NCBI RefSeq assembly: GCF_030269605.1
Contig: NZ_BSTQ01000028.1
Coordinates: 1 to 64,000 of the forward strand
Length of the DNA: 64,000 bases
Direction of reading: 5' to 3'
Source: Lentzea sp. NBRC 105346
GTDB lineage: Bacteria; Actinomycetota; Actinomycetes; Mycobacteriales; Pseudonocardiaceae
In this document: one piece after another, positions 39,162 through 57,980 of the stretch
How the letters are laid out: each line of letters starts with the position of its first letter
Numbering within the stretch: the stretch's first letter is position 1
Notes under the pieces: generated by a model
What the model was told of the DNA's origin: nothing
What the model saw: the letters and a program-made list of their open reading frames with translations, nothing else
The model's database searches: none
Made by a program: the position numbers and the translations under genes

Positions 39162-39168
39162 CCTCGAG

Positions 39169-39403: not shown

Positions 39404-39573
39404 CTCGACAGGTGGCTGGACTTGACCGCCGTGAGGAACGAGCTCCACGCGGGTGCGTTGACCGGGAGATGGCCCGCGGCTACCGCCTTGCTGTCGCGGA
39501 TGCCGACGCCATGGCCGACCTCGACGCAGTTCATTCCGTTGCCGCTGTAGCTGCTCTTGCGCCAGACCATCAT
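39400..39573 (-). CDS. DUF397 protein
   Basis: The 57-residue protein has the DUF397 hallmark VWRKSSYSGNGMNCVEVG, then GIRDSKAV and a C-terminal WSSFLTAVK. These small proteins are typically encoded next to XRE/DUF5753 regulators in actinomycetes, and BldB is a distant relative. They may act as antitoxin-like or developmental partners. ATG at 39573 has GGGAGG about 5 nt upstream and lies 12 nt after the XRE stop. Confidence 0.88.
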   Translation of the reverse strand: MMVWRKSSYSGNGMNCVEVGHGVGIRDSKAVAAGHLPVNAPAWSSFLTAVKSSHLSR

Positions 39574-39584
39574 CGGCGCCTCCC

Positions 39585-40415: not shown

Positions 40416-40522
40416 GTAACGAAGTTAGGGCCGGAGGTTGCCGGACCTCCATCGTTTGGGCCGAAGTCAACCCGAACGGGGAGCGCTTTGGAAGGCCTCC
40501 AAAACCCTTGCCCGCCAAGGAA

Positions 40523-40575
40523 ACCGTTATGGCCACCTTCACGGACCTCAAGTCCGTGAAGGTGGCCATAACGGT
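40523..40575. terminator. perfect 24-bp hairpin terminator, CTCAA loop
   Basis: Arms 40523-40546 and 40552-40575 are exact complements around CTCAA. It ends 2 nt from the subtilase stop (minus strand), so it terminates that gene before the XRE gene. GTTAxGGCCACCTTCAC and the loop are shared with 2410-2460. Confidence 0.8.
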
Positions 40576-40577
40576 CG

Positions 40578-42035: not shown

Positions 42036-44284
42036 CGCTTCCGGTAGTAGGCCGTGTAGGTGGTGTTCACCGCGGGCGCGATGATCGTGTGGTCCTTCGC
42101 GCCGCCGTCGGACCAGGACGCGAAGGCGTAGGTCGAGCGGTTGAACACCTGGGTCTCAGGTGCGCTCACCGAGTTGCCCGACCCCACGATCACCGTTGCG
42201 CTGAACGGGGTCGACTGCGCGGACTCGTTGAACCCGAGCCCGGACAGCTTGAGCCCGCCGGGGTTGGTCTTGAACGTGAGCACGACCGTCAGCGGGTCGA
42301 GCCGCACGCTCGTCGTGGTCGACAGCCCGCCGGAATCCGTTGCGGTCAAACGAAGTTGCAGGTAGGACGGGTACTGGTGGTCAGGGGCGGCGAACTGTCC
42401 ACTTGCGACACCGGAGTATGTCTGAACAACATGCTCGTGGCAATCACTTGCACTGAAGCAATGGTTCATAACCAGTTGCCAGTTGAGCCCGGACGCGGGA
42501 ATCGTGCCGTCCTGCGTGTCCGTGGCGTGGCCGGAGAAGCTGATGACGTCACCGACCTTCCAGCGCAGAGATGCAGTGGGCGAGTCGATGGCCGGCATCG
42601 GCGGTGTGTTGCCGACGGTGATCGTGACACTGTCGGTGTCACTGGCGCCCTGCGGATCGGTGACCCGCAACGACGCGACGTAGCTGCCGGAAGCGTTGTA
42701 GGTGTAGCTGGTCGTCGCGGTGGTGGCGTCGCCGTAGACGCCGTCGCCGTTGAGGTCCCAGCTGTACGTCAGCGCCGCGTTCTCGGGATCGGTCGACGTC
42801 GTGCCGCTGAAGTTCACGGTCAGCGGGGCGTTTCCGCTCGTCGGGGTGGCGGTGACCCGCGCGGTGGGCGGCTGGTTCGCGGCGGTGTAGACGATCCGGT
42901 GGATCGTGCCGTTGTCCATGTTGACGTAGAACAGGTCGCCGTTCGGCCCGATCTCCAGGTCGACCGGGTGTCCCGCGCCCGCACCGGTTCCGTCGACGCA
43001 CACCAGGCACTGGCGGTTCGCCGGATCCGGCAGACCGTTGGTACCGGGCATCATCGCCCAGATCTCGTTGCGGCTGTGGTCGCCGAAGAACAACGCGCCG
43101 TTGTACTGGGCGGGGTACGAACCGCCGCTGTAGAACGCCATGCCGGTGATCGACGAGCTGCCGGTGCGGCAGCCGGAGTAGTTCACCACGCAGGCACTGT
43201 GCGCGTAGGTGTAGTACGGCGCGGTGACCGAGCCCGGCGTGTTGTACAGCTGCGAGCACATGGTCAGGTTCGCGCTCTGGTACCCGGACTGGATGCCGGC
43301 GCCCTCGTAACACGGCCAGCCGAAGTTCTGGCCGGAGGTGAGCCGGTTGATCTCCTCCCAGTTGTTCCAGCCGACGTCACCGATCCAGATCTCGTCGGTG
43401 CCCGGCCGCTGGGTCATCCGGAACGGGTTGCGCAGGCCGTAGCCGAGGATCCGCCGAGCGTTGGGGTCGGTCGACGACGCGAACGGGTTGCCCGGCAGGC
43501 CCTCTCCGGTGGTGGGGTCGATGCGCAGGACCGCGCCGTCGAGCGTCACCGGGGTGCGCCGCACGCTCTGGCTGCGCAACGCGCCACCCTGCGCACCCGG
43601 TGGGGTCAGCGGGGTGCCGACAGTGCCCGGCGGGTCACCGCACGGGTTCGCCTGGAAACCGGGGTAGTTCGCGCCGTACTGGCCGTAGTCGACGTTGTTG
43701 AAGCTCGCGCCGTCACCGCCGCTGACGTACAACGCGCCGTCGCGCCCGAACAGCAGCGTGCCGATCGAGTGGCTGGGGTACTGCTGGCACCAGTCGTTGA
43801 TCAGCACCGTCTCGTTCGTCACGGTGTTGCCGCTGGCGGTCAACCGGCTCAGGCGCCCGTAGACCAGGCAGCCGTCGGTCGTCGGTCCGGGCGGGGTCGG
43901 GCAGCCGTCGCCCCAGCGTCCACTCGGGTCGTAGGCGTACAGCGCGTACGCGTAAGGCGTCGCCGGGAAGTTCGGGTGCAGCGTGAAGCCGAGCAGGCCG
44001 CGGTCCCAGAAGTCGTGCACGCTCGCCGACAGGTCGGCGAACGTCGTGGCCGTCGTGTCGGTCAGGTTGTCGAAGACCTTGATCTGACCGTTCTTCTGCG
44101 CGACGAACACCCGGCCGTCATTGGCGAACTGAATGGCCGTCGGGTTCGTGAGCCCGCTGAACACCACTCGATCACTGAAGTTGGGCGGCAGCGTCGAGGC
44201 CGCCGCGACGGGCATCGCCACCGTCGCGGGCGCCAGCAGGACCACTGCGAGCAGTGCTGTCTTGAGTCTGGGGCGCAGCTTCAT
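42032..44284 (-). CDS. secreted PQQ-type sugar dehydrogenase with PKD domain
   Basis: The 750-residue protein has a Sec signal (about 1-28), a six-blade beta-propeller of the soluble glucose/sorbosone dehydrogenase family (about 35-465) and a PKD domain (about 475-560; FSGTTSTDPENAALTYSWDLNGDG). C-terminal beta-sandwich modules follow. Propeller landmarks include RGLLGFTLHPNF, YGLRNPFRM, GDVGWNNWEEIN and IEIGPNGDLFYV-like strands. The substrate is probably a sugar, with PQQ as cofactor by family inference. It is divergent from the megasynthase operon and shares a 288-bp intergenic region with it. Confidence 0.9.
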   Translation of the reverse strand: MKLRPRLKTALLAVVLLAPATVAMPVAAASTLPPNFSDRVVFSGLTNPTAIQFANDGRVFVAQKNGQIKVFDNLTDTTATTFADLSASVHDFWDRGLLGFTLHPNFPATPYAYALYAYDPSGRWGDGCPTPPGPTTDGCLVYGRLSRLTASGNTVTNETVLINDWCQQYPSHSIGTLLFGRDGALYVSGGDGASFNNVDYGQYGANYPGFQANPCGDPPGTVGTPLTPPGAQGGALRSQSVRRTPVTLDGAVLRIDPTTGEGLPGNPFASSTDPNARRILGYGLRNPFRMTQRPGTDEIWIGDVGWNNWEEINRLTSGQNFGWPCYEGAGIQSGYQSANLTMCSQLYNTPGSVTAPYYTYAHSACVVNYSGCRTGSSSITGMAFYSGGSYPAQYNGALFFGDHSRNEIWAMMPGTNGLPDPANRQCLVCVDGTGAGAGHPVDLEIGPNGDLFYVNMDNGTIHRIVYTAANQPPTARVTATPTSGNAPLTVNFSGTTSTDPENAALTYSWDLNGDGVYGDATTATTSYTYNASGSYVASLRVTDPQGASDTDSVTITVGNTPPMPAIDSPTASLRWKVGDVISFSGHATDTQDGTIPASGLNWQLVMNHCFSASDCHEHVVQTYSGVASGQFAAPDHQYPSYLQLRLTATDSGGLSTTTSVRLDPLTVVLTFKTNPGGLKLSGLGFNESAQSTPFSATVIVGSGNSVSAPETQVFNRSTYAFASWSDGGAKDHTIIAPAVNTTYTAYYRKR

Positions 44285-44464
44285 CGCGGCCCCCTTCCTG
44301 TCCGCCTGGAAGGGACATCGGGGGTCGACGAAATGCGTTACGTGGCAACGGAAAGTGCCCGGACGGCTACAGGCCGGTCCTTATCAGCTGCCGGGCGTAA
44401 AGGCGAGAACGCCACGTTACAAGCACCAAAAGAGTTGCTCAGCGTATCAATAGCTTAACTATGG

Positions 44465-44548
44465 GTGATGTCGATCACGACTCCATCGGTAAGGCATAGG
44501 AACGTTCCTAGACTCCGATCCGGTCCATTTTGATCACGCGTGGTGATC
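44465..44548. promoter_or_regulatory. three operator-like palindromes upstream of the megasynthase operon
   Basis: GTGAT-N4-ATCAC lies at 44465-44478. TAGGAACGTTCCTA, a perfect 14-bp palindrome, lies at 44497-44510. GATCAC-N5-GTGATC lies at 44532-44548. The first and third share the GTGAT/ATCAC half-site, about 70 bp apart, so one repressor could bind both. They lie 25-108 bp before the ATG at 44573. No regulator gene is in the cluster. Confidence 0.5.
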
Positions 44549-44572
44549 GAGCAGGCACTGTGAGGGGTCACC

Positions 44573-47500
44573 ATGGGTGAAGTTCTGGGGATCACGCCGT
44601 CGGCGCGAGTCGCCGCCACGCTGTGCGCCGCGGGAGCCGTCGGCGTGCTGGATCTCGGTGCCGGGGACCGGAACGCGGTGCGGGAGCTGCGCCGGGCGGC
44701 GCGGTCGATCGATGGAACGTTCGGCGTGCGGGTCGGCGCGGCCACAGCGGAGGTGTTGCCGGACCAGGTTTCCCTGGTCGTGACCGACACCGTCGGCGAG
44801 TGGCGGGCCGCCGGACGACGGGTCGTCGTCGAGGTCGCTGACGTGGCCGCGGCGCGTGCGGCCGTGTGTGCGGGCGCGGATGGCCTGCTGGTCAAGGGCG
44901 ACGAGACGAGCGAGCTGACCTCGTTCGTGCTGCTGCAGTACGTGCTGTCCGAAGTGGACGTACCGGTGTGGGTGGCGGGTGGTATCGGGCCGTGGACCGC
45001 AGCGGCGGCCGTCGCCGGTGGAGCGGCCGGTGTCGTGCTGGACTCGCCGGACGCCGGCGCGGTGCGCGCGGTGCGGGACGCGATCGCGGCGGCGCGGCGA
45101 CCGGAGATCGTGTCCACGCTGGCCGAAGGATCGCCGTTGGCGCAACGGCTCGGCTGCCGGTTGCCGGTGGCGCAGGGGCCGATGACCAGGGTCAGCGACC
45201 GGCCCGAGCTGGCGCTGGCCGTGGCCGGCGCCGGAGGCATGCCGTTCCTCGCGCTCGCACTGGCGGACGAGGCGGCCACCACGGCGTTGCTGCGCGAGAC
45301 CTCGAAGAGTCTGGGCGAGAAGCCTTGGGGCGTGGGCATTCTCGGTTTCGCGCCGGAGGAGGTGCGGGCGGCGCAGCTCGACGCGATCCGGCGGGAGCGG
45401 CCCGCCGCGGTGATCATCGCCGGCGGGCGGCCGACGCAGGCGAGCGCGCTGGAGGCCGACGGCATCCCGGCGTTCCTGCACGTGCCGTCGCCGAGGCTGC
45501 TCGGGCAGTTCCTGGACGCGGGGGCGCGGCGGTTCGTCTTCGAGGGCGCCGAGTGCGGCGGCCACATCGGGCCGAAGTCGAGCTTCCGGCTGTGGCAGGA
45601 GCAGGTCGACGTGCTGGTCGGCTTTCTCGACGCGCGTCCGGGCACCGTGGTCGACGTGTTCTTCGCGGGCGGTGTGCACGACAGCCGGTCCGCCGCGATG
45701 GTGGCGGCGCTGGCGGCCCCGCTGACGACGCGCGGCGCCGGGGTCGGCGTGCTGATGGGCACGGCGTACCTGTTCACCGCGGAGGCCGTGACCAGTGGCG
45801 CGATCGGCGCGGCGTTCCAGCGGCAGGTGCTCGCCGCCGCCACGACCGCGGTGCTGGAGACCGCGCCCGGCCACCAGACCCGGTGTGTCACCAGCCCGTT
45901 CGCCGACGAGTTCACCGCGTTACGCGCCGAGTTGCGGGAGCAGGGCGTGCCCGACCGCGAGGCGTGGGAACGGTTGGAGCAGCTCAACATCGGGCGGTTG
46001 CGCATCGCCAGCAAGGGACTGCGCCGCGCCGGTGACGCGCTGGTCGAGGTGGACGAAGCCACGCAGGTCGCCGAGGGGCTGTTCATGGCCGGGCAGGTCG
46101 CGGTGCTGCGCGACACCGTGACGACGGTCGCCGAGCTGCACGCGGACGTCACCGCGGGTGCGACCGAAGTGCTGGCGCGCAACGTGATCGAGGACGACGA
46201 CGCGTTCGTCGCACCACCGCTGGACATCGCGATCATCGGGATGGCGGGCGTCTTCCCCGGCGCGACCGACACGGCCGCGTTCTGGGCGAACGTGCTCGAC
46301 GGGGTGGACGCGGTCACCGAGGTGCCCGCGCACCGCTGGGACCCGGCGCTCCACCACCCCGGCCGCGTACCGTCCAAGTGGGGCGGGTTCCTGCCGGAGA
46401 TCGGGTTCGACCCGCTGCGCTACGGCATCCCGCCCGCCTCGCTCGCCTCGATCGAACCGGTGCAGCTGGTCGCGCTCGAGGTCACGGCGCGAGCCATCGC
46501 CGACGCCGGGTACGCCGACCGGTCGTTCGACCGCTCACGCACGGCGGTCGTGTTCGGTGCCGAGTCCGGTGGCGAGCATTCCAACGCCGTGATGCTGCGT
46601 GCGATGCTGCCCGGTTACCTCGCCGAGGTACCCACCGAGCTGGACGAGCAGCTGCCGGCGTTCACCGAGGACACCTTCCCCGGTGTGCTGGCCAACGTCA
46701 TCTCCGGCCGCATCGCCAACCGGCTCGACCTGGGTGGCGCGAACTTCACCGTGGACGCGGCGTGCGCCTCGTCGCTCGCCGCACTGCACGTCGCCTGCCG
46801 GGAGCTGACCAGTGGCAGCGCCGACCTCGCGCTGGCCGGCGGCGCGGACACCCACAACGGGCTCTACGACTACCAGCTGTTCGGCGCGGTCGGCGCGTTG
46901 TCTCCGACCGGCCGGTCCCGCGCGTTCGACGCGAGCGCGGACGGCATCGCGCTGTCCGAAGGCGTCGGATGTGTTGTGCTGAAACGACTTGCCGACGCCG
47001 AACGCGACGGCGACCGGGTGTACGCGGTGATCCGGGGCATCGGCACGTCCAGCGACGGGCGTTCCCTCGGGCTCACCGCGCCGCGTCCCGACGGCCAGCG
47101 CGCGGCGATCACCAGGGCGTACGCGAACGCACGGGTCACCCCGGCGGACGTGGGCATCGTCGAGGCGCACGGCACCGGCACGGCCGTCGGTGACCGCACC
47201 GAGCTCGCCACGCTCACCGAGATGTTCGCCGGGACCGCGCCGGGCGGCACGGTGCTGGGGTCGGTCAAGTCCCAGATCGGGCACACCAAGTGCGCGGCCG
47301 GACTCGCCGGGCTGATCAAGACCGCGATGGCGCTGCACACCGGCACCCGGCCGCCGACCGCGCACCTGACCAGGCCGGTCGAGCCGTGGTCGGCGGACGA
47401 CAGCCCGTTCGCGTTCCACACCTCGGCCGCACCCTGGCCCGGTGTCGCTTCCGACCGGGTCGCGGGCATCAGCGGGTTCGGCTTCGGCGGCACCAACTTC

Positions 47501-50500
47501 CACGCGGTGCTGACCGGTCACGGCGGGCCGTCGCCCCGGCACGGCCGCGACCAGTGGCCCGCCGAGCTGTTCGTGTTCCGCGCCCAGTCCGATGTGGACT
47601 GGTTGCGGACGCTGGTCGACGCCCGCCCGGACGCCCGGCTGCGGGACCTCGCGCTGACCGCCGCCCGCCGGTTCGAACGGACCGAGGCGCGCGCCGGTGC
47701 CGCGTTCGTCGCACGCGACGTGGCCGAGCTGACGCGCAAGCTCGCGGACGTGACGATCAGCGAACCGCGCCCGCTGGGCGAGGTGGCGTTGCTGTTCCCG
47801 GGCCAGGGCAGCCAGCGGCCGGGCATGGCGGCCGAGCTGCTCGTCGCGTTCCCCGAACTGCAGGAGCTCGCGGACCGGCCGTGGGCCGGCGTGCTGTTCC
47901 CGCCCGCCGCCTTCACCGAGGAGCAGGCGCGGCGGCAGCAGGATCGGTTGCGGGACACCAGGATCGCGCAGCCGGCACTCGGTGTCGCCGGGCTCGCCTA
48001 CCACCACGTGCTCACGACGGCCGGGGTGCGGCCGGACATGGCGGCCGGTCACAGCTACGGCGAGCTGGTCGCGCTGACCGCGGCCGGTGCGCTGGACCCG
48101 GACGACCTGGTCGGGCTGAGCGAGGCCCGCGCGGCCGAGATCCTCGCCGCCACCGGGGACGACCCCGGCGCGATGGCCGCGGTGACGGCGCCTCCGGCCG
48201 AGGTCGAGCCACTGCTCACCGGTGGGGTCGTGATCGCCAACCACAACTCGCCGCGGCAGACCGTGATCTCCGGTCCGACCGCGGACGTCGAGCGCACGGT
48301 CGAGGCGTTGTCGGCGGCCGGGCTGCGGGTGAAGCCGATCCCGGTGGCGTGCGCGTTCCACAGTCCGCTGGTCGCGGATGCCGGGCCGCGGTTCGCCGCA
48401 CGGGTCGCCGAGCTGGAGCTCGCGGCGCCGCTCTTCCCGGTGTGGGCCAACCGGACCGCGTCCGAGTACCCGGCCGACGCTGACGTCGCAGTCGAGCTGG
48501 GCGCCCAGATCGGCGCTCCGGTGCGGTTCGCCGAGCAGATCGAGGCGATGTATGCCGCCGGTGCCAGGGTGTTCGTGGAGTGCGGTCCCGGAACGGTGCT
48601 CAGCGGACTCGTCGACGCCGTGCTGGGCGACCGTCCACATCAGACGGTGCACATGGAGCGCTCGGGTGGCGGCCTCACCGGTGTCCTGACCGCGCTGGCC
48701 GAGCTCGCCGCTGCCGGTGTGCCCATCAGGCCGAGCGGGCTGTGCGACGGCCGGGCCGCCGACCTCACCGACACTGTGGCGAAGCGGCCACAATGGACGG
48801 TGGACGGCCAGGCGGTGCGGACCGCGGCGGGAGAGTTCGTCAGCGGCAGGCCGCCGAAGCGGGTCACGCTGACCCGCACCGCGCGCGGCGGCGACCCGGA
48901 CGCGGTCATCGACGACTACCTGCGCACCACCAGGGAGTTCGTCAACGCGCAGCGGGACATCATGCTCGCCTACTTCGGTGCGGAGCAGCGCCCGTTGCCG
49001 CGGGCCGAGTCCGTGCCCGCGCCGGTGGAGCCGGTTGTCGTCGAGTCCCAGCAGGAAGAACCCGTCGGTTCCACGCTCGACGTGGTGACCTCGTTGATCA
49101 GCGAACGCACCGGCTACCCGGTCGAGATGATCGAACCGGGCCTCGACCTGGAGGCCGACCTGTCGATCGACTCGATCAAGCGAACCGAGCTGGTCGGCGA
49201 GCTGGCTGCCCGGTTCGCCGGACGGGTGGGCGATGCCGACATCGAGGAGCTCGCCAAGGCCCGCAGCGCGGGTGCGCTCGCCGAGTCGCTGGACCGCAGG
49301 CTGGGTGGTGCCGCGGAGTCGAAGCCGGTCGTGCGGGTGGAGACGCCGTCGGGTGTCGCGCCGACCCGGTTCGTGCTCACCGAGGTCGTCGCGGAGGCCG
49401 AGCCCACCGGTGAGCTGACCGGCAGGCGGCTCGCGGTCACCGGTGCGGACACGCCGTTCGGCGCCGCGGTCGCGACGGCACTTGTCGAACGGGGTGTGGT
49501 GCTTGACCCGGACGGTCCGGACGGGCTGGTGTACCTGGACGCGCTCGCCCCGGCCGGGGCCGAGGACGATCCGATGCTGTTGCCGGAGCTGTTCCCGCGG
49601 TTGCGGGCCGCCGCGCTGACCGGCGGGACGCTGCTCGTCGTCGTGCGCGACGGTGACCGCAGGGCCGCCGGGCTGCGCGGGTTCATGCGGTCGGTGTTCC
49701 GTGAGTGTCCACAAGCGACGATCAAACTGGTGGAGCTGACCGGCGAACCGGACCCGGACCTGGTGTGCGCGGAACTGCTGTCTCGCGGTGAACCCGTGGT
49801 GCGGCTGGGGGAGCGGCGCTCGGCGTTCACCCTCACCGCCGCACCGCTGGGACTGCTCGGCACCGCGGGCGGCGGGCCGGACGGTCAGGGCGGCGCGGAA
49901 GCGGCCGCACTGGGCCTGGGCCGTGAGTCGGTGCTGGTGCTCGTCGGTGGCGCGCGTGGCATCACCGCGCGGTTCGCCGAGACCGCGGCCGCCGCGAGCG
50001 GCTGCCGGATCGTGCTGGCCGGGCGCACCGACCTGGCCGGTGACCCCGAGCCCGCCGAGGTGGCCGCCGCCGCGGATCTGGCCGGGATCCGCGCCGCGCT
50101 CGCGGCTCTCGGCACGCGGGAACCCACCGAGCTGGACCGGCTCGCGCGGCGGGTGCTGGCGCGGCGCGAGGTGAACGCCACGCTCACGCGGCTGCGCGGC
50201 CTCGGCAGCGACGTGCGGTACTGGACGCTCGACGCGACGGACACCGCCGCGGTGCGGACCCTGGTCAAGCAGACGCACGCCGAGTTCGGCCGGGTCGACG
50301 GCGTCGTGTTCGCCGCCGGCGTGATCGAGGACCGCCTGCTCGCCGACAAGACCGTCGACTCGTTCCGCCGGGTGTTCGGCACCAAGGTCGACGGCGCGTC
50401 GGCGTTGCTCGCGGCGCTCGCCGACCTCCCGGACGCGCCGTCGTTCACGGTGTTGTTCGGCAGCATCGCCGCGGTGCTGGGCAACCGCGGCCAGTGCGAC

Positions 50501-50758
50501 TACGCCGCCGCCAACGACGCGCTGGAGACGCTCGGCCGGGAGTTCGCCGCCCGCTCCGGGTCGCGTGCGCTGACCGTCCATTGGGGACCGTGGGCGCCGG
50601 ACGCGGAACACGGCGGCATGGTCACGCCCGAGCTCGCCGTGGACTACGCGCGCCGGGGCATCGAGCTGATCGACCCGGAGGAGGGCGCGGTCGGCCTGCT
50701 GCGCGAGCTCGCGTGGGGCGCGCAGGACTGCGTCGTGTACACGGCGTCCGGGTGGTGA
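44573..50758 (+). CDS. iterative megasynthase: PfaD-like ER-KS-AT-ACP-KR
   Basis: In this 2061-residue protein, residues about 1-540 form a nitronate-monooxygenase/PfaD-like enoyl-reductase barrel (PVAQGPMTRVSDRPELA; ECGGHIGPKSSF). The KS (550-975) has Cys731 in VDAACASS, His866 in EAHGTGT and His904 in SQIGHTKCAAG. The AT (1085-1400) has GQGSQ, Ser1161 in GHSYGE and His1263 in AFHSP, fitting malonyl transfer. One ACP has Ser1534 in LSIDSIKRTE, the PUFA-synthase style. The KR (1750-2061) has GGARGIT, Ser1964 and Tyr1977. The ATG follows GAGGGG. Codon 450 is TTA. It likely builds a chain with malonyl units, ketoreduction and enoyl reduction; dehydration comes from the next protein. Confidence 0.93.
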   Translation: MGEVLGITPSARVAATLCAAGAVGVLDLGAGDRNAVRELRRAARSIDGTFGVRVGAATAEVLPDQVSLVVTDTVGEWRAAGRRVVVEVADVAAARAAVCAGADGLLVKGDETSELTSFVLLQYVLSEVDVPVWVAGGIGPWTAAAAVAGGAAGVVLDSPDAGAVRAVRDAIAAARRPEIVSTLAEGSPLAQRLGCRLPVAQGPMTRVSDRPELALAVAGAGGMPFLALALADEAATTALLRETSKSLGEKPWGVGILGFAPEEVRAAQLDAIRRERPAAVIIAGGRPTQASALEADGIPAFLHVPSPRLLGQFLDAGARRFVFEGAECGGHIGPKSSFRLWQEQVDVLVGFLDARPGTVVDVFFAGGVHDSRSAAMVAALAAPLTTRGAGVGVLMGTAYLFTAEAVTSGAIGAAFQRQVLAAATTAVLETAPGHQTRCVTSPFADEFTALRAELREQGVPDREAWERLEQLNIGRLRIASKGLRRAGDALVEVDEATQVAEGLFMAGQVAVLRDTVTTVAELHADVTAGATEVLARNVIEDDDAFVAPPLDIAIIGMAGVFPGATDTAAFWANVLDGVDAVTEVPAHRWDPALHHPGRVPSKWGGFLPEIGFDPLRYGIPPASLASIEPVQLVALEVTARAIADAGYADRSFDRSRTAVVFGAESGGEHSNAVMLRAMLPGYLAEVPTELDEQLPAFTEDTFPGVLANVISGRIANRLDLGGANFTVDAACASSLAALHVACRELTSGSADLALAGGADTHNGLYDYQLFGAVGALSPTGRSRAFDASADGIALSEGVGCVVLKRLADAERDGDRVYAVIRGIGTSSDGRSLGLTAPRPDGQRAAITRAYANARVTPADVGIVEAHGTGTAVGDRTELATLTEMFAGTAPGGTVLGSVKSQIGHTKCAAGLAGLIKTAMALHTGTRPPTAHLTRPVEPWSADDSPFAFHTSAAPWPGVASDRVAGISGFGFGGTNFHAVLTGHGGPSPRHGRDQWPAELFVFRAQSDVDWLRTLVDARPDARLRDLALTAARRFERTEARAGAAFVARDVAELTRKLADVTISEPRPLGEVALLFPGQGSQRPGMAAELLVAFPELQELADRPWAGVLFPPAAFTEEQARRQQDRLRDTRIAQPALGVAGLAYHHVLTTAGVRPDMAAGHSYGELVALTAAGALDPDDLVGLSEARAAEILAATGDDPGAMAAVTAPPAEVEPLLTGGVVIANHNSPRQTVISGPTADVERTVEALSAAGLRVKPIPVACAFHSPLVADAGPRFAARVAELELAAPLFPVWANRTASEYPADADVAVELGAQIGAPVRFAEQIEAMYAAGARVFVECGPGTVLSGLVDAVLGDRPHQTVHMERSGGGLTGVLTALAELAAAGVPIRPSGLCDGRAADLTDTVAKRPQWTVDGQAVRTAAGEFVSGRPPKRVTLTRTARGGDPDAVIDDYLRTTREFVNAQRDIMLAYFGAEQRPLPRAESVPAPVEPVVVESQQEEPVGSTLDVVTSLISERTGYPVEMIEPGLDLEADLSIDSIKRTELVGELAARFAGRVGDADIEELAKARSAGALAESLDRRLGGAAESKPVVRVETPSGVAPTRFVLTEVVAEAEPTGELTGRRLAVTGADTPFGAAVATALVERGVVLDPDGPDGLVYLDALAPAGAEDDPMLLPELFPRLRAAALTGGTLLVVVRDGDRRAAGLRGFMRSVFRECPQATIKLVELTGEPDPDLVCAELLSRGEPVVRLGERRSAFTLTAAPLGLLGTAGGGPDGQGGAEAAALGLGRESVLVLVGGARGITARFAETAAAASGCRIVLAGRTDLAGDPEPAEVAAAADLAGIRAALAALGTREPTELDRLARRVLARREVNATLTRLRGLGSDVRYWTLDATDTAAVRTLVKQTHAEFGRVDGVVFAAGVIEDRLLADKTVDSFRRVFGTKVDGASALLAALADLPDAPSFTVLFGSIAAVLGNRGQCDYAAANDALETLGREFAARSGSRALTVHWGPWAPDAEHGGMVTPELAVDYARRGIELIDPEEGAVGLLRELAWGAQDCVVYTASGW

Positions 50759-53700
50759 GCGTGGAACCCGTTGCCGTCGTCGGAATGGGGGCGCTGTTCC
50801 CCGGCGCCCCCGACCTGGACGCGTACTGGCGCAACCTCGTCGGCGGAGTGGACTGCATCACCGGCGTGCCCGAGGACTACGGCCTGGACGGGTTTCCCGG
50901 CGCGCGAGGCGGTTTTCTCGGCGACCTCGCCACCGTCGACGTGGCCGGGCTGGGACTGATGCCGGCCGCGTTGCCGTCCACCGAACCCGACCAGCTGCTC
51001 GCGCTGCACGTTGCCAAAGCAGCGATAGCCGACGCCGGTGACCTCGGCGACCACGCGCGGGTCGGGGTGATCCTCGGCCGGGGCGGCTATCTCACCGCCG
51101 GGTTGTCGCAGATCGACCTGCGGACCAACGTCGCGCGCCAGCTCGTGACCACGCTCGGCGAGCTGCTGCCCGACCTCGGACCCGCCGAGCTGGACCGGGT
51201 GCGCACCGCGTTCCTCGACCGGCTCGGGCCCGAGTCGCCGGGGTCGGAGATCGGTCACGTGCCGAACCTGGCCGCGTCCAGGATCGCGAACCGGCTCGGG
51301 TTCGGCGGCCCCGCGTACACGGTCGACGCGGCGTGCGCCTCGTCGTTGATCGCGATCGACCACGCCGTGAACGAGCTGGCCGGCGGCCGGTGCGACGCGG
51401 TGCTGGCCGGTGGGGTGCACCACGGGCACGACGCGACGCTGTGGACCGTGTTCGCCCGGCTCGGCGCGCTGAGCCGGACGGCGGGCATCCGGCCGCTCTC
51501 CGGAAACGCCGACGGCCTGCTGATCGGTGAGGGCACCGGAATCGTTGTCCTGAAACGACTTTCCGACGCGCGTGCGGCCGGTGACCGGGTCTACGCGGTG
51601 GTGCGGGGCACCGGTGTCGCGAGCGACGGTGGTGGCGTCAGCCTGATGCACCCGGCCAGCGGCGGGCAGGTGCTCGCGGTCCGCCGGGCGTGGGACGCCG
51701 CCGGTCTGGATCCCGCCGCGCCGGACTCGGTGGGGCTGATCGAGGCGCATGGCACCGCCACCCGTGAGGGTGACGCCGCCGAGGTGGCGACACTGCGAGA
51801 CGTGTTCGGACCGGGCGAACCCGCGGTGGTCGGGTCGGTCAAGTCGATGATCGGGCACACCATGCCCGCCGCGGGCATCGCCGGGTTCATCAAGGCCGCG
51901 CTGGCGGTGCACCACGGCGTGCTGCCGCCGACGCTGCACTGCGAGACCCCGCATCCGGGACTGGCAGGCACCCGGTTCCGGCCGATCGCCGAGGCACAGC
52001 CGTGGACTGGGACGCGCCGGGCCGCGGTCAACGCCTTCGGCTTCGGCGGGATCAGCGCGCACGTGGTGCTGGAGCAGGAGAGTTCGCCGGTTGTCGTGCG
52101 CACGCCGACGCGGGTGTTGCGGATCGCGGCGAACTCCGCCGGGGAACTGGCCGAGTTGCTGAACGCCGGCCGGTCTGTGGGATCCGGCCCGGTCCGTATG
52201 TCCATTGTGGATCCTGACGAGCGGAAGATCGCGACCGCGCACCGCGTGCTCGTGGCGGGCAAGCCGTGGCGCGGACGAGGCGACATCTGGTTCAGCCCCG
52301 CGCCGCTGCTGCCCGAAGGGAAGATCGCGTTCCTCTATCCGGGGCTGGAGGCGCAGTTCTCGGCCGAGGTCGAGACGGTCGCCCGCCGGTTCGGGTTCGC
52401 CGCACCGGAGTTGTCCACGCACACGCTCGGCAGGCACGGCGCAGCCGTCTCCGACGTCGGCCGGATGATGGACGCGGCCGTACGGATGCTCGGCATCCTT
52501 CCGGACGCCGTGGCGGGCCACTCGATCGGTGAGTGGAGCGCCATGACATCCGCCGGGATGTACGACGAGGACGAGCTCAGCGCCGTGCTCGACACGTTCG
52601 ACCTGGACAACTTCCCGGTGCCGGACGTGGTGTTCGCGACGCTGGGCGCTCCGGCGGAGCGCGTCGAGCCGAGGCTGACCGGCGATCTCACGCTGTCGCA
52701 CGACAACTCGCCCAACCAGTGCGTCGTGTGCGGTCCGGCCGACCAGGTGCGCGCGCTGCTGGCGGAGCTGCTCGACGAACGGGTGCTCGGCCAGGAACTG
52801 CCGTTCCGGTCCGGGTTCCACACGCCGGCGTTGCGGCCGTACGTCGGGCGGATCGAGAACGGCCTCGGTAAGCACGTGCTGCGTCCGCCCGCGGTGCCGA
52901 TCTGGTCGGCCACGATCGCCGCGCCGTATCCGGACGACATCGACGAGGTGCGCGAGCTGTTCACCCGGCACCTGCTGGAGCCGGTGCGGTTCCGGCCGAT
53001 GATCGAGGCCATGTACGCGGCGGGGTTCCGGGTGTTCGTCCAGGTCGGACCGGGCCAGCTGCACACGCTGGTGTCCGACGTCCTGGCCGGCCGCGACCAC
53101 CTCGCGGTCGCCGCGAGCTCCACCCGGCACGACGGCATCGGCCAGCTCACCAGGGTCGCCGCCGCGGTGTGGGCGGACGGCGGTGCGGTGCGCGACGAGC
53201 TGTGGCCGCCGCTGCCGCTGACCCCGACGCGGTTGCGGCTGGGCAGGCCGCTGGTCTCCCTCGGCCCGGATGCCCCGGCGCTGATCGGGTCGGTGCGTGC
53301 CGAGCCCGCGCGGCCGGACCGGGTGGCGGCATTTCTGCGTGACACCGAACAAGCAGTCGCTGACGTGCTCGCGGCGGCACGGGTCACCGGTGGTCATCAA
53401 GAGCACGAGATGTCGTTGCGCACCATGCCTTATCTGCGCGACCACTCGTTCTACGACCTGCCCGCGGGCTGGCCGGACGCGCACGACGGCTTCCCGGTCG
53501 TGCCGGCGACCGAACTGGTGCGCCAGCTCATGGCCGCCGCGGAACGGGCGATGCCCGGTATGCGCGCGATCGCCGTGCACGACGCGAGGTTCGAACGCTG
53601 GCTCGCGGTCGAACCGGCGGTGCGGGTGCGGTTCGAGATCACTCCCGTGGGACCACGGCGGATCCGGGTGACGGCCAAGGGCCACGCGCAGGCGGAGATC

Positions 53701-54657
53701 GAGCTGGCCGCCGGATATCCCGGTGACCGGCCGGTGCCGTGGACGTTGCCCGCCGACCGTGAGCCGCTGCTCACCGGCGAGGAGATGTACCGGCGGCGGT
53801 GGATGTTCCACGGTCCCGCCTACCAGGGCGTGTCGGAGATCAGCGGGATCGGCGACCGGCACGTGCACGGCGTGATCACCGTGCCCGACGCGCCGGGATC
53901 GTTGCTGGACAACGCGGGCCACTTCGTCGGGTACTGGGTGATGGAGGAGTTCGAGGAGAACTGCTGGACGTTCCCGAAGCGGTTCGGGCACATCCGGTTC
54001 TTCTCCGACCCGCCACGCCCCGGCGACAAGGTGGTCTGCCAGGCACGGCTCGTCTCGGTCACCGGCACCTCGGTCGAGGCCGAGCTGCTGCTGGTCCGCG
54101 ACGACGGCACGGTGTGGGCGCACGCGACCGGCTGGCAGTTGCACCGGTTCGCCTGTACGCCACGGGTGCGGGCGATGAAGGAGAACATGGGCACCGCCAT
54201 GATCGCGCACGACCGGGACGGCTGGTACTGGGTCGGCGAGACCTGGCCGGACCTAGCCACCCGCGAGCTGATGGCCCGGATGTACCTGACCCGCGCCGAG
54301 CAGGCCGACTACCAGTCCCAGCCGCCGACGGCCCGGCGCGGGTGGCTGCTCGGCCGGATCACCGCCAAGGACGCGGCACGGGCGTGGCTGCTGGCCTCCG
54401 GCCGGGCCGAGGTGTTCCCGGCGGAGCTGGAGGTCGGCTCGGGCGTCGTGACCGAACGCTTCGGCGCGCGGTCCACTGTGGACGTGACGGTGGAGCAGTG
54501 CCGTGAGGTCGCCGTCGCCCTGACCGGACCCGGCCGCATCACCGTGCTGGACACCGAGCCGTCCTTGGCCGAGCTGGGCCCGGAGGTTCGGCTGGAACGC
54601 CTGTGGCACAACGATCGCGAGTACTTCGTCGCATGGACCAGGGAGAGTGGACGTTGA
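50755..54657 (+). CDS. second megasynthase: KS-AT-dehydratase-degenerate PPTase-like tail
   Basis: In this roughly 1300-residue protein the KS (about 1-430) has Cys194 in VDAACASS, His332 in EAHGTAT and His368 in SMIGHTMPAAG. The AT-like domain (about 515-800) has Ser590 in GHSIGEW and His689 in GFHTP, but FLYPGLEAQ replaces the usual GQGSQ. The dehydratase (about 885-1150) has His897 in LRDHSFY and Asp1052/His1056 in DNAGH. The tail (from about 1190) starts GWLLGRITAKDAAR, as in phosphopantetheinyl transferase-like tails, but lacks clear SH and GIDxE motifs. No ACP is embedded. GTG at 50755 overlaps the previous stop (GTGA); GTG 50752 or 50761 are alternatives. Confidence 0.9.
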   Translation: MSVEPVAVVGMGALFPGAPDLDAYWRNLVGGVDCITGVPEDYGLDGFPGARGGFLGDLATVDVAGLGLMPAALPSTEPDQLLALHVAKAAIADAGDLGDHARVGVILGRGGYLTAGLSQIDLRTNVARQLVTTLGELLPDLGPAELDRVRTAFLDRLGPESPGSEIGHVPNLAASRIANRLGFGGPAYTVDAACASSLIAIDHAVNELAGGRCDAVLAGGVHHGHDATLWTVFARLGALSRTAGIRPLSGNADGLLIGEGTGIVVLKRLSDARAAGDRVYAVVRGTGVASDGGGVSLMHPASGGQVLAVRRAWDAAGLDPAAPDSVGLIEAHGTATREGDAAEVATLRDVFGPGEPAVVGSVKSMIGHTMPAAGIAGFIKAALAVHHGVLPPTLHCETPHPGLAGTRFRPIAEAQPWTGTRRAAVNAFGFGGISAHVVLEQESSPVVVRTPTRVLRIAANSAGELAELLNAGRSVGSGPVRMSIVDPDERKIATAHRVLVAGKPWRGRGDIWFSPAPLLPEGKIAFLYPGLEAQFSAEVETVARRFGFAAPELSTHTLGRHGAAVSDVGRMMDAAVRMLGILPDAVAGHSIGEWSAMTSAGMYDEDELSAVLDTFDLDNFPVPDVVFATLGAPAERVEPRLTGDLTLSHDNSPNQCVVCGPADQVRALLAELLDERVLGQELPFRSGFHTPALRPYVGRIENGLGKHVLRPPAVPIWSATIAAPYPDDIDEVRELFTRHLLEPVRFRPMIEAMYAAGFRVFVQVGPGQLHTLVSDVLAGRDHLAVAASSTRHDGIGQLTRVAAAVWADGGAVRDELWPPLPLTPTRLRLGRPLVSLGPDAPALIGSVRAEPARPDRVAAFLRDTEQAVADVLAAARVTGGHQEHEMSLRTMPYLRDHSFYDLPAGWPDAHDGFPVVPATELVRQLMAAAERAMPGMRAIAVHDARFERWLAVEPAVRVRFEITPVGPRRIRVTAKGHAQAEIELAAGYPGDRPVPWTLPADREPLLTGEEMYRRRWMFHGPAYQGVSEISGIGDRHVHGVITVPDAPGSLLDNAGHFVGYWVMEEFEENCWTFPKRFGHIRFFSDPPRPGDKVVCQARLVSVTGTSVEAELLLVRDDGTVWAHATGWQLHRFACTPRVRAMKENMGTAMIAHDRDGWYWVGETWPDLATRELMARMYLTRAEQADYQSQPPTARRGWLLGRITAKDAARAWLLASGRAEVFPAELEVGSGVVTERFGARSTVDVTVEQCREVAVALTGPGRITVLDTEPSLAELGPEVRLERLWHNDREYFVAWTRESGR

Positions 54658-54929
54658 AGGAGACCGTGCTGACCGAGGTCGCCGACGCCGTGCGGCAGGT
54701 GCTCGACGGCGTGCCGCTGGACGAGATCACCATGGAGACCAGCTTCGCCGACGACCTGCAGTTCGAGAGCATCGACGTCGTCGTGCTGAGCGGCCACCTG
54801 ACCGAACGCTACGGCGACGCGGTGAACGTGCCGAAGTTCTTTACCGACCTGGAGCTGGACGAGATCATCGCGCTGACCGTCGGCGACCTGGTCGCGTTCA
54901 TCTCGACCGGACTCGAGGCGGCCCGCTGA
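54654..54929 (+). CDS. free-standing acyl carrier protein
   Basis: The 91-residue ACP carries the phosphopantetheine Ser in DLQFESIDVVVLSG. TTG at 54654 overlaps the megasynthase stop (TTGA) and has GGGAGA 7 nt upstream. ATG at 54633 would add seven residues but has no ribosome binding site. The second megasynthase has no ACP of its own, so this one probably serves its KS-AT or hands the chain to the hydrolase. It shares one base with the next start. Confidence 0.92.
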   Translation: MKETVLTEVADAVRQVLDGVPLDEITMETSFADDLQFESIDVVVLSGHLTERYGDAVNVPKFFTDLELDEIIALTVGDLVAFISTGLEAAR

Positions 54930-55690
54930 TGGGGTTCGTCGAGGCGAACGGGATCCGCCTGCACTACCAGCGCCAGCCGCACACCTCCACGGACCGGCCG
55001 ACGGTGGTGTGCCTGCACGGGCTCGCGGACACGTTGGCGGGCTTCTACTTCACGCTCGTGGGCCCACTCGCCCAGGCGGGCTTCGACGTGATCACCTACG
55101 ACCTGCGCGGGCACGGCCGTTCCGACCAGCCGACGTCCGGCTACACGATCGGTGACCACCTCGACGACCTGACCGGCCTGCTCGACGAGCTCGGCGTCAC
55201 GGGCCCGCTGCACGTGCTCGGCTTCTCCTTCGGCGGCACGCTGGCGTTCTCCTTCGCCGAGCGTTTCCCCGCGCGGATGCTGACGCTGACGGTGATCGAG
55301 TCCGAGCCGCCGACGAAGGCGTGGGCGCGGCGCACCTCGGCCGGGTTCGGGAAGCTGGACACGGTGCTGCTCGACGAGGTGTTCGTGCGCGCGCAGCCCA
55401 GGGTGCTGCGGCGGATGGCCCAGTCGATCATGACCGCCGGGGAGACCAGCGTCGCCGTGGACACGGTCGCGCCGGAATGGCTGATCAGTTCCGACGAGAT
55501 CCGGAAGATCACTTGCCCGGTGCACCTCGTGGTCGGCGGCGACTCGGAACTCTCCCGCCACACCGAGGAGTTCGTGCCGCTGCTGCCGGACGTCACGGTG
55601 AACATCGTGCCCGGCGAGGAGCACATGGTGCTGACGTCGTCCCCGCGTGAGGTCGCGGCGCTCGTCGTACCGTGGCTGGCCGCCCGATGA
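54929..55690 (+). CDS. alpha/beta hydrolase of the megasynthase operon
   Basis: The 253-residue cytoplasmic protein has CLHGLADTLAGFYF (oxyanion), GFSFGGTLAFSFAE (nucleophile Ser), a late Asp (VVGGDSELSRH) and His (GEEHMVLT). It would release the chain from an ACP as a thioesterase, or process an ester or lactone. It resembles general alpha/beta hydrolases more than typical type II thioesterases. The ATG shares its A with the ACP stop (TGATG). The stop overlaps the glycosyltransferase gene. Confidence 0.9.
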   Translation: MGFVEANGIRLHYQRQPHTSTDRPTVVCLHGLADTLAGFYFTLVGPLAQAGFDVITYDLRGHGRSDQPTSGYTIGDHLDDLTGLLDELGVTGPLHVLGFSFGGTLAFSFAERFPARMLTLTVIESEPPTKAWARRTSAGFGKLDTVLLDEVFVRAQPRVLRRMAQSIMTAGETSVAVDTVAPEWLISSDEIRKITCPVHLVVGGDSELSRHTEEFVPLLPDVTVNIVPGEEHMVLTSSPREVAALVVPWLAAR

Positions 55691-56748
55691 GCCGCTTCCT
55701 GCTCGTCGTGCCCCCGTTGCCCGGCCACATCGCGCCGTTGCGCGGAGTGGCCGACGCGCTCACCGCCCGCGGGCACGAGGTGGCGTGGGCGGGTGTGGGC
55801 GAGGTGTTCCCGTGCGACACCGATGACTTCCACCCGGCGTCGTTCCACCGGCCTTCGCTGCGCGGGGCGGCCGCACTGAAGTTCCTCGTCGAGGACTACC
55901 TGGTGCCGCTGGCACAACGCATGGAACCGGGCGTGACCGCTGCGATCAAGACGTTCGAGCCGGACCTCGTTGTCGTGGACCAGCAGACCTACGCCGGCGC
56001 GTTCGCCGCCGACCGGCTCGGCGTGCCGTGGGTGACCTCCGCGTCCACCACGACCGAGCTGACCGACCCGTACCCGCCGAAGATCGAAGAGTGGCTGCTC
56101 TCCCGGCTGACCGAGTTGGGTGGCTTCGACCCCAGGTTCTCGCCGTCGCTGGTGCTGGCCTACAGCTCCGCCGAGCTGACCGGCCCGGTGAGCCGTCCGG
56201 TGAGCTTCGTCGGCCCGATGCTGCCGCCGTGCTCACCGTCCCCTGTGGACCCACCACTCGTGTTCGTCACGCTGGGCACGGTCAACGACGGCATCGGCGG
56301 CCGGTTCCTGAACGAGTGCGTATCGGCGCTGGCCTCGCGCGACGTGCGTGCCGTGGTCGTGGATCCCGGCGGCCATCTGGGTCCGGTGCCGCCCAACGTG
56401 GTCGTCGCGCCGCACGTCGACCAGCTCGCGGTGCTCGCGTCCGCTTCGCTGGTGATCTGCCACGGCGGCCACAACACGGTGTGCGAGACGCTGTGGCACG
56501 GCCTTCCGCTCGTGGTCGCGCCGATCAGGGACGACCAGCAGGTCGTGGCGGGTCAGGTCGCTGCTTCCGGTGCGGGCGTCCGGCTGCGGTTCGCGCACGC
56601 GACCGCCGCCCAGATCGGTGCCGCTGTCGACGAGCTTCTCGTGTCGCCGTCGTTCTTGGCTGCGGCACAACGGATCCAGCGTTCTTTCTTGGATGCGGGT
56701 GGTGCCGCGGCCGCGGTCGGGCTGCTGGAGGGGCTCATCTCCGCATGA
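55687..56748 (+). CDS. GT1-family glycosyltransferase (UGT/macrolide type)
   Basis: The 353-residue GT-B enzyme begins MSRFLLVVPPLPGHIAPLRG, with the His near residue 14 that often acts as base. The C-terminal donor site reads APHVDQLAVLASASLVICHGGHNT, then HGLPLVVAPIRDDQQVVAGQV. Such enzymes glycosylate polyketides, sterols or carotenoids. The protein is shorter than typical (about 390-420). ATG at 55687 overlaps the hydrolase stop. No deoxysugar genes are nearby, so the donor is probably a common UDP-sugar. Its 3' end overlaps a convergent methyltransferase by 14 bp. Confidence 0.92.
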   Translation: MSRFLLVVPPLPGHIAPLRGVADALTARGHEVAWAGVGEVFPCDTDDFHPASFHRPSLRGAAALKFLVEDYLVPLAQRMEPGVTAAIKTFEPDLVVVDQQTYAGAFAADRLGVPWVTSASTTTELTDPYPPKIEEWLLSRLTELGGFDPRFSPSLVLAYSSAELTGPVSRPVSFVGPMLPPCSPSPVDPPLVFVTLGTVNDGIGGRFLNECVSALASRDVRAVVVDPGGHLGPVPPNVVVAPHVDQLAVLASASLVICHGGHNTVCETLWHGLPLVVAPIRDDQQVVAGQVAASGAGVRLRFAHATAAQIGAAVDELLVSPSFLAAAQRIQRSFLDAGGAAAAVGLLEGLISA

Positions 56749-57304
56749 GGAAGGCGGCGAAGCCGTTCTTCGGTTCGTCGAGGCGCTCAATCTCGAACGT
56801 GTCCGCGAACAGGGTGGTCTCCTCGCCGGGTTTGAGGCCGGGGAAGCGGGCGCCCTTGCGGCGCCACCACGGGATCTCGTCGTAGAAGCACCACAGCAGG
56901 AAGCGTGATCCCTGGTGGGACAGTCGCTTGACGGTCCGCGCCATTTTCTCGCGGTCCGGACCTTTGAGGTCGTCCAGTACGCCGTAGTCGACCAGCAGGT
57001 CGAACGTGCCCTCGACGCCGGGGATCTCTTCGGCGGTCAGGTCGCCTTCGACGAACTCGATGGGCAGCTTGCCGGCGTTATCTCTGGCCTTCTCGAGCCC
57101 TTTGGGGGAGAAGTCGACGCCGGTCACGTCGAAGCCGTGCTCGGCCAGGAAGATCGCGTTGGCGCCGCTGCCGCAGCCCAGGTCGATCGCGCGGCCCGGT
57201 TTCAGAACGCCGCTCTCGACGAGTGCGACCAGTTCGGCGCGCGGCCCGGTCTCCCACGGCGCCCAGGTGCGGTACATGAAGTCGTATGCCCTGCGGCCCA
57301 CCAT
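56735..57304 (-). CDS. class I SAM-dependent methyltransferase
   Basis: The 189-residue Rossmann-fold methyltransferase has the SAM site AIDLGCGSGANAIFLAEHG, VTGVDFSPKGLEKA and the acidic motif VEGDLTAEE. It has a thiopurine-methyltransferase-like or small-molecule-type size. It is convergent with the glycosyltransferase, so membership of the biosynthetic cluster is uncertain. The substrate is unknown. Confidence 0.88.
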   Translation of the reverse strand: MVGRRAYDFMYRTWAPWETGPRAELVALVESGVLKPGRAIDLGCGSGANAIFLAEHGFDVTGVDFSPKGLEKARDNAGKLPIEFVEGDLTAEEIPGVEGTFDLLVDYGVLDDLKGPDREKMARTVKRLSHQGSRFLLWCFYDEIPWWRRKGARFPGLKPGEETTLFADTFEIERLDEPKNGFAAFLMRR

Positions 57305-57320
57305 GGTGCCGACGGTACGC

Positions 57321-57656
57321 CTAGCCCGCGGAGCGCTCGTGGTCGGCGATGAACTGCCGCACCGGCGCGAGCTCGTCGTGCACGACCTGACGCATCAGCT
57401 CCTCGAGTGTCGACACGTCGTTCGCGCTCGCCTGTTCCACCCAGCGGCGCATCAGCGCGGTCGGCTTGACGCCCTCGTCCGCGGCACGTGCGCGCACGCG
57501 GTCGAGAACGCTCTTCGGGAGCCGGAGCGAGGTGGTGATCATCGGGTCCGGATCGACCGTCTCGTCGAGCTCCGCGTGCTCGAGCTCGCTCGACAGGTCC
57601 GTGGTGTCGTAGTGCTCGGCCAGCTTCGTCAGGTCCTTCTCGCGCAACGCCCTCAC
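57321..57656 (-). CDS. BrnA-like / CopG-type antitoxin
   Basis: The 111-residue protein has a ribbon-helix-helix motif, MITTSLRLPKSVLDRVRARAADEGVKPTALMRRWVEQ, in its middle (about 36-72), with an acidic N-terminal part that would contact the toxin. GTG at 57656 overlaps the toxin stop (GTGA). The toxin-then-antitoxin order fits BrnT/BrnA modules, in which the RHH protein represses the pair. Confidence 0.82.
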   Translation of the reverse strand: MRALREKDLTKLAEHYDTTDLSSELEHAELDETVDPDPMITTSLRLPKSVLDRVRARAADEGVKPTALMRRWVEQASANDVSTLEELMRQVVHDELAPVRQFIADHERSAG

Positions 57657-57922
57657 CTCGCCTTCCTGCGGAACAGAACACGTTCCTTGCTCGTCATACC
57701 GCGCGCCGTGACGACGAACGTCGTGTGGCCGTCGCTGTCGTCGGCCAGCACGACCACCAAATGCCGGCCTGCGTTCGTCGTGCCGAAGATCAGGGTCGTG
57801 TCCTCTCTGCCGCGGGTGATCCACCGCGGCCTCGTGTAGGCGACTTCCTCCACCTCCGCCGGCGTGACACCGTGGCGGGCGATGTGTTCCTCGGACCACT
57901 CGGTCCATCGCAGTTCCCGCAC
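57653..57922 (-). CDS. BrnT-like ribonuclease toxin
   Basis: The 89-residue protein has the BrnT-like pattern WTEWSEEHIARHGVTPAEVEEVA, a central LIFGTTNAGRHLVVVLAD and a C-terminal TARGMTSKERVLFRR. BrnT toxins are small ribonucleases of the RelE-like fold. GTG at 57922 gives MRELRWTEW. The antitoxin follows with a 4-bp overlap. Confidence 0.82.
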   Translation of the reverse strand: MRELRWTEWSEEHIARHGVTPAEVEEVAYTRPRWITRGREDTTLIFGTTNAGRHLVVVLADDSDGHTTFVVTARGMTSKERVLFRRKAR

Positions 57923-57980
57923 TGGTCGGACCCTAGTGTATTGCGTTGCATTGCGTTGCGCCAGGGTCTGGGTCCAAACG

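Follow-up and report, generated by a model that had tools for sequence, protein, structure and literature searches.

The stretch of DNA considered here (the window) is 64,000 nucleotides long and covers positions 1-64000 of contig 28 in the 9.39-Mb genome of Lentzea sp. NBRC 105346. Between positions 44573 and 56748 it carries five overlapping genes on the forward strand: two multidomain synthases, which we call P1 and P2, a free acyl carrier protein (ACP), an alpha/beta hydrolase, and a glycosyltransferase (GT) (Table 1). An initial annotation, made from the sequence alone, had described a compact five-gene operon for a glycosylated polyketide or lipid, and that description is borne out by the gene calls, by domain models and by base composition. 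Pfam and NCBIfam support the ketosynthase (KS), acyltransferase (AT), ACP and ketoreductase (KR) domains of P1, the KS, AT and polyketide synthase (PKS)-type dehydratase (DH) of P2, and the ACP, hydrolase and GT; third-position GC lies between 0.88 and 0.96 across the five genes, which indicates that they are coding and not chance open frames. The operon is genuine and the domain-level reading was correct, in that every domain named is present, but a FabK-like barrel at the N terminus of P1 and the remnant of a phosphopantetheinyl transferase (PPTase) at the end of P2 had been missed. The overlaps, put at 1-4 bp, are 4 bp for P1/P2, 1 bp for ACP/hydrolase and 4 bp for hydrolase/GT; the figure for P2/ACP is 4 bp if the ACP begins at its TTG codon and 25 bp if the ATG at 54633 is used instead.

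Table 1. Coordinates of the synthase operon, its domains and an upstream palindrome (positions in the window)
Feature	Coordinates	Strand	Description and basis
Palindrome	44497..44510		Perfect 14-bp palindrome TAGGAACGTTCCTA; ends 62 bp upstream of the P1 start
P1	44573..50758	+	2061 aa; fused PfaD/PfaA-like synthase, FabK-like barrel - ER - KS1 - AT1 - ACP - KR
P1 N-terminal barrel	44573..45088	+	Degenerate FabK-like barrel (residues 1 to ~172); sequence profiles
P1 enoyl reductase (ER)	45137..46180	+	FMN-type, FabK/PfaD-like (residues 189-536); TIGR03151 98.5 bits; ECGGH loop present
P1 KS1	46223..47515	+	Residues 551-981; Pfam; catalytic Cys, two His, Lys present
P1 AT1	47783..48643	+	Malonyl-type; Pfam; Gln and Arg present
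P1 ACP	49082..49255	+	Single ACP; Pfam; DSIKR motif
P1 KR	49937..50596	+	Pfam; Ser, Tyr, Asn, Lys present
P2	50755..54657	+	1300 aa; GTG start; KS2 - AT2 - DH - PPTase remnant
P2 KS2	50764..52080	+	Pfam; catalytic residues kept
P2 AT2 core	52483..53094	+	Pfam; GHS His and Ser retained, Gln and Arg of malonyl-type ATs lost
P2 dehydratase	53401..54150	+	PKS-type (PS-DH); PF14765 31.4 bits, cut-off 23.7; His and Asp/His present
P2 PPTase remnant	54202..54654	+	Residues ~1150-1300; N-lobe kept, catalytic C-lobe missing; sequence profiles
Free ACP	54654..54929	+	TTG start; alternative ATG at 54633; Pfam
Alpha/beta hydrolase	54929..55690	+	GFSFG nucleophile loop; Pfam
Glycosyltransferase	55687..56748	+	GT1/MGT-like; Pfam, NCBIfam

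In the classification of Shulse and Allen (2011; PMC3098273) this operon belongs to the Type M secondary lipid synthases, whose members include Frankia, Actinosynnema mirum DSM 43827, Renibacterium salmoninarum and Streptomyces avermitilis. Like these synthases it combines a fused pfaD-pfaA protein with a second protein that has AT and DH domains and a PPTase, here a remnant, an arrangement of fused pfaDA and fused pfaBC-like proteins as described for R. salmoninarum; a 2026 paper likens its own fused pfaDA and PPTase-bearing pfaBC to that same cluster (PMC13291983). In Actinosynnema mirum (L124) the single P2 relative is part of an operon with matching gene order, the ACP, hydrolase and GT included. 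The KS of the pfaA-like protein also groups with Type M members. In a quick KS tree of 84 of 186 sequences retained after thinning, which carries a long-branch warning and contains no heterocyst-glycolipid KS, the 32 KS1 rows fall on one side of a single branch with a support of 100, and the 39 KS2 rows do so with a support of 99. Both clades hold sequences from A. mirum and from Frankia torreyi CpI1 (L075), the 2011 list naming other Frankia. Outside the two clades lie PfaA-type and PfaC-type KS (from two other loci of the same genome) as well as Type P, enediyne-type and modular KS; this tree does not resolve how Type P, PfaA, enediyne-type and KS1 branch relative to one another. The initial annotation had staked its reading on the KS domains falling inside no characterized clade, and neither KS falls within the branches of the PfaA-type, Type P or enediyne-type sequences. 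What does not stand is its view that the two-protein split, the fused reductase and the attached GT have no known parallel: Type M clusters are arranged in this way, and a fused ER-KS-AT-ACP-KR protein occurs in Type P as well.

We rejected the idea of a new architecture on two grounds, that Type M is already in print and that the gene order is widely kept. With the AT2-DH part of P2 as query, a scan of one genome per species returned at least 554 relatives among 591 candidate stretches, and the best 80 loci by similarity were used, a choice that favors close relatives. The complete order ER-KS1-AT1-ACP1-KR-KS2-AT2-DH-ACP-hydrolase-GT is present in 58 of these 80 loci, and in six more KS2 is the sole missing domain. 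The remaining 16 are incomplete, with the domains detected in the same order; 11 are cut by contig ends (L033, L053, L055, L059, L062, L067, L075, L088, L092, L094 and L105), and in the uncut ones we detected no ACP1 (L040, L099), no ACP1, free ACP or hydrolase (L079), no free ACP, hydrolase or GT (L086), or only the KR part of P1 (L049). The hosts include Streptomyces, Kitasatospora, Amycolatopsis, Actinomadura, Actinokineospora, Virgisporangium and Frankia, and there are also four metagenome-assembled genomes labelled delta-proteobacteria, Proteobacteria and Acidobacteria (Acidobacteriaceae). In loci of several phyla a hydrolase and a GT accompany the synthase, in line with the initial annotation. 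A six-gene version that includes a methyltransferase has been annotated by others on a Streptomyces plasmid. Sampling by taxonomy, with five candidates scored per genome in the family and two in the phylum, we found that 146 of the 346 genomes from the host's family have a relative of the dehydratase part of P2 (host included; five of them weak only, E 1e-6 to 1e-3) and that 9 of 396 genomes of the phylum, again with the host included, have a P2 relative at E 1e-60.

One Type M feature is missing from the window. The PPTase of Types M-T carries the hShxH motif (P1b'; PMC3098273), and the window operon differs in having lost this motif together with the catalytic lobe. Relatives have a complete PPTase at the C terminus of P2, and a profile built from 26 proteins, the window's included, matches AcpS and Sfp chains (E 2e-5 to 8e-3). 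We surveyed 97 loci for this domain, with the window added and L123 left out; they are not all independent, L019/L066 and L022/L070 being the same contigs, as are L026/L123 in the survey of active-site residues. Taking as intact a domain in which two motifs were found, 56 loci appear intact, 25 lack the C-lobe (the window among them), 15 are degenerate and one is cut. The hShxH pattern matches all 56 intact relatives, 4 of the 15 degenerate ones and 2 of the 25 without a C-lobe, and the PUFA-type (polyunsaturated fatty acid) motif occurs in only 1 of the 56. Since 41 of the 97 loci are without an intact domain, window included and one of them merely cut, we regard the absence of the motif here as the loss of a part and not as exclusion from Type M. 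The C-lobe is lost in all five Lentzea paralogue loci examined (L013, L024, L025, L101 and L104). One ACPS-type gene (PF01648) is encoded elsewhere in the genome (C2:152680).

Within P1, the ER is preceded by a second, degenerate barrel. A profile of this N-terminal part, built from an alignment of 19 proteins with the window's among them, matches FabK-like chains in the PDB (best E 4e-22) and the ER of the same 19 proteins (hhalign E 1.5e-10). The corresponding loop of FabK reads GGH, and its histidine is catalytic. That histidine is present in none of the 89 barrel open reading frames (profile matches among 4871), where the position is Arg in 36 and another letter in 11, and 42 are without the motif; because of this absence the N-terminal barrel is probably inactive. 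The ER itself keeps the loop as ECGGH in 18 of the 19 rows, the window included, and has EAGGF in one. In the window the N-terminal barrel is also shortened and has no EAGG loop. The same degenerate barrel precedes the ER in the two Type P proteins (L107, L109). The oxyanion Gln and the malonyl-carboxylate Arg of AT1 are kept in all 88 rows of one multiple alignment, and pairwise alignments find the Arg in 87 of 88 covered loci.

P2 presents a different picture. Its acyltransferase, AT2, retains neither malonyl-type residue, Gln or Arg, in any row of one multiple alignment (0 of 97 and 0 of 98), and a His precedes the catalytic Ser in all 98. With the residues that hold the malonyl carboxylate lost, AT2 is not expected to load extender units. 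In this respect AT2 resembles PfaB, which was shown in 2026 to be a terminal acyltransferase for long chains and from which Gln and Arg have likewise been lost (PMC12895367); in bacterial PfaB a Tyr precedes the catalytic Ser, according to the same paper, where AT2 has the His of GHS. When AT2 was compared with solved structures, no chain named as PfaB appeared among the best 60 of 107 matched chains. The DH keeps its His and Asp in 97 of 97 loci, and given that it is PKS-type and not FabA-type, we do not expect PUFA-like cis double bonds. The catalytic residues of KS2 are complete in all 86 loci that have this domain. Loci with no KS2 but with AT2 and DH kept in the second protein are L017, L019/L066, L022/L070, L072, L077, L082 and L096.

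The tailoring genes are conserved at key residues. The hydrolase nucleophile is Ser in 89 of 93 loci and Cys in four, and its His is present in all 93. The Asp of a GGDSE motif, considered as the acid of the triad, was rejected when it proved to be Asp in only 31 of 93 loci; Glu124, kept in 89 of 93, is the better candidate. Three donor-loop residues of the GT are kept in 90-91 of 92 loci. This conservation suggests that the hydrolase releases a product and that the GT adds a sugar to it.

We put at roughly 60% the probability that the operon, as a Type M synthase with its own release and sugar-transfer genes, makes a long, reduced, glycosylated chain that is built iteratively. P1, with KS1, AT1, ACP, KR and the FMN-type ER, together with the DH of P2, would use malonyl units repeatedly to give a long acyl chain that is largely or completely reduced; such a chain is our best guess since KR, DH and ER are apparently intact and Type P is the nearest characterized relative. 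AT2, instead of loading extender units, would act on a non-carboxylated acyl group, most probably the completed chain, and hand it to the free ACP. From there the alpha/beta hydrolase would free the chain, and the GT1 glycosyltransferase would transfer a sugar to a hydroxyl or carboxyl group. The ACPs would be activated in trans, given that the built-in PPTase has no catalytic lobe.

Several observations weigh against this proposal: (i) with no product of the family known, chain length and reduction are drawn by analogy from Type P, whose KS form a separate branch; (ii) the active-site residues of KS2 are intact, unlike those of the KS' of PfaB, the role of KS2 is unexplained, and KS2 is missing from six of the 80 loci; (iii) with the GHS His where bacterial PfaB has Tyr, a starter-loading role for AT2 stays open, and AT2 could instead be a starter-unit AT; (iv) P1 has a single ACP, unlike canonical PUFA synthases; and (v) the window operon is without the methyltransferase gene that follows the GT in 33 of the 80 loci.

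The initial annotation was right to call the product unidentified; we found none for Type M in the open-access literature, and the family has been known since 2011 while its molecule has not. The main text of the 2011 paper (PMC3098273), figures aside, contains no word beginning with "glycosyl," and the tailoring genes are therefore not described there. The window operon is one more member of this uncharacterized family, in which the conserved ACP, hydrolase and GT suggest a released and glycosylated product and the AT2 residues point to an off-loading step that can be tested. At five genes and 12 kb it is a small, conserved and directly testable example, and it could be transferred to a laboratory Streptomyces.

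The likeness to PUFA synthases that the initial annotation had noticed is real but limited. PfaA (TIGR02813) is the top NCBIfam model for both P1 and P2, at 792 and 370 bits against a cut-off of 1010, and membership in PfaA was rejected on these scores; the comparison proteins scored 1603 (L014), 1389 (L015), 1156 (L107) and 1055 (L109). With PUFA synthases (PfaABCDE; Type L, Streptomyces coelicolor) the operon shares an ER, KS, malonyl AT, ACP, KR and a second AT that has lost the same residues as PfaB. It differs in having one ACP in P1 where PUFA synthases have 4-6 in tandem, a PKS-type in place of a FabA-type dehydratase/isomerase, and one KS in each protein with no KS-CLF pair. The same genome carries two PUFA-type loci, L014 and L015 (contigs 32 and 2), with a separate PfaD-like protein and a FabA-type DH.

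The enediyne PKS offers a second comparison, and with it a second view of the product. Enediyne PKS have the domain order KS-AT-ACP-KR followed by DH-PPTase, an order that recurs in this operon split over two proteins, P2 ending in DH-PPTase in those members whose PPTase is intact; the operon differs in its extra ER, KS2 and AT2. On this comparison the product might be a partly reduced conjugated polyene, made in the enediyne manner with KR and DH active and no enoyl reduction, then released and glycosylated. A PKS-type DH could leave trans double bonds without isomerization, and enediyne-type KS share KS1's side of the tree (support 97), at the same unresolved fork as Type P and PfaA. We nonetheless think a polyene unlikely. 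An FMN-type ER with its catalytic loop intact is fused to the synthase, as it is in Type P, a maker of alkyl chains. The two enediyne-type KS, which lie beside DUF1702 genes that we take as markers of enediyne clusters and which are not otherwise confirmed as belonging to enediyne PKS, share only 36-37% identity with KS1 and sit on a long branch of their own, a separate position on which enediyne membership was rejected.

Type P, the nearest characterized relative, supplies the analogy for a long, reduced chain. Its clusters (ArsA-ArsD of Azotobacter vinelandii and a plasmid-borne cluster of Beijerinckia indica) share the fused barrel - ER - KS - AT - ACP - KR protein, the Beijerinckia protein (L107) being 51% identical to P1 in the ER and 52% in the KS, and they include a protein with DH- and PPTase-like parts at 26% and 32% identity. 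KS2, AT2, the free ACP, the hydrolase and the GT were not detected in the 20-kb Type P stretches L107 and L109, whose KS lie on a separate branch, and Type P membership was rejected for that reason. Type P synthases make phenolic lipids, ArsA of Azotobacter yielding C23-C25 fatty acids that are passed to type III PKS partners (PMC4824345). This precedent raises the alternative that the window's synthase makes no free glycolipid but provides another assembly line, whether a PKS, a nonribosomal peptide synthetase (NRPS) or a type III PKS, with a fatty-acyl starter or side chain; hybrid clusters with PUFA-like genes have also been described (PMC13291983). We consider this improbable. The operon carries its own hydrolase and GT, and the only KS matches on contig 28 are KS1 and KS2. 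No type III PKS is found among the five operon genes, and neither it nor any other assembly line is present in the 20 flanking genes that were scanned with Pfam, the rest being unscanned and no genome-wide search for type III PKS or NRPS having been made. Those 20 genes comprise a subtilase, a glucose/sorbosone dehydrogenase-PKD protein, a small methyltransferase and housekeeping genes.

Heterocyst glycolipid synthases (Type F, hgl) resemble the operon in being iterative lipid synthases whose product is glycosylated, and differ in that hglC is KS-CLF-AT and has no DH/I domains (PMC3098273). We can imagine, as a conjecture that we hold with a good deal less confidence than the function proposed above, that Type M makes a conserved, glycosylated very-long-chain lipid, the actinobacterial counterpart of the heterocyst glycolipids, with a distinct off-loading route in which a malonyl-blind AT2 would pass the chain to a dedicated free ACP and from there to the hydrolase and GT1. 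A Lentzea genome paper reports 15 antiSMASH hglE-KS clusters (PMC9120177), and these may include Type M loci. A link to the vesicle envelopes of Frankia was also considered and dropped, three Frankia mutant papers giving no match to polyketide or ketoacyl, the only terms used.

Contig 1 of the same genome carries another Type M locus, whose identity to the window copy is 47% in P1 and 41% in P2. Each of 23 other Lentzea genomes (23 of 23) has one strong P2 match at 36-40% identity, the level of the contig-1 paralogue, and none of them has a closer match to the window's P2; the operon is a second copy, not seen in those 23 genomes. Gene order was read in four of these loci (L024, L025, L101 and L104). 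In the KS tree, L025 joins the contig-1 copy, and the window copy joins Virgisporangium and loci from three further genomes in the host's family. The operon sits in an accessory stretch, from ~38954 to 57980, as judged from four other Lentzea genomes in which only a short distance separates the riboflavin cluster (window 34003 to ~38954) from the aconitase gene (starting at ~57980). This distance is 35 bp in L140 and 2.1-2.3 kb in L141 and L138, and nothing in these three matches the stretch beyond its edges; L139 retains the subtilase part alone, with the match picking up again after 102 bp (window 42049/57985). Gain here and loss elsewhere cannot be told apart, gain being the simpler.

A copy in an accessory island could be decaying and make nothing. 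The missing PPTase C-lobe, the shortened N-terminal barrel without its EAGG loop and the absence of a methyltransferase gene from the operon would all agree with decay. We doubt it, however: the catalytic residues checked in KS, AT1, DH, KR, ACP, hydrolase and GT are all present, the frames are open with high third-position GC, and loss of the PPTase lobe is common in the family, the Lentzea paralogues included.

Upstream of P1, the palindrome TAGGAACGTTCCTA is the sole copy in the genome when up to one mismatch is allowed, and a reversed-pattern control gave 0; it is a possible operator. No sigma-70-like promoter was found between 44200 and 44700. Downstream, a small methyltransferase gene on the opposite strand (56735-57304) shares 14 bp with the 3' end of the GT gene. 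Methyltransf_25 is its best Pfam model, and the methyltransferases that follow the GT in L013, L016 and L025 have Methyltransf_23 as theirs. In the Lentzea Type M paralogues the operon is followed by a protein of 607 residues (L013:3174-4997, contig 1 of the same genome) or 578 residues (L025:13228-14964), in which a C-terminal Methyltransf_23 domain is preceded by ~340-370 residues with no Pfam match.

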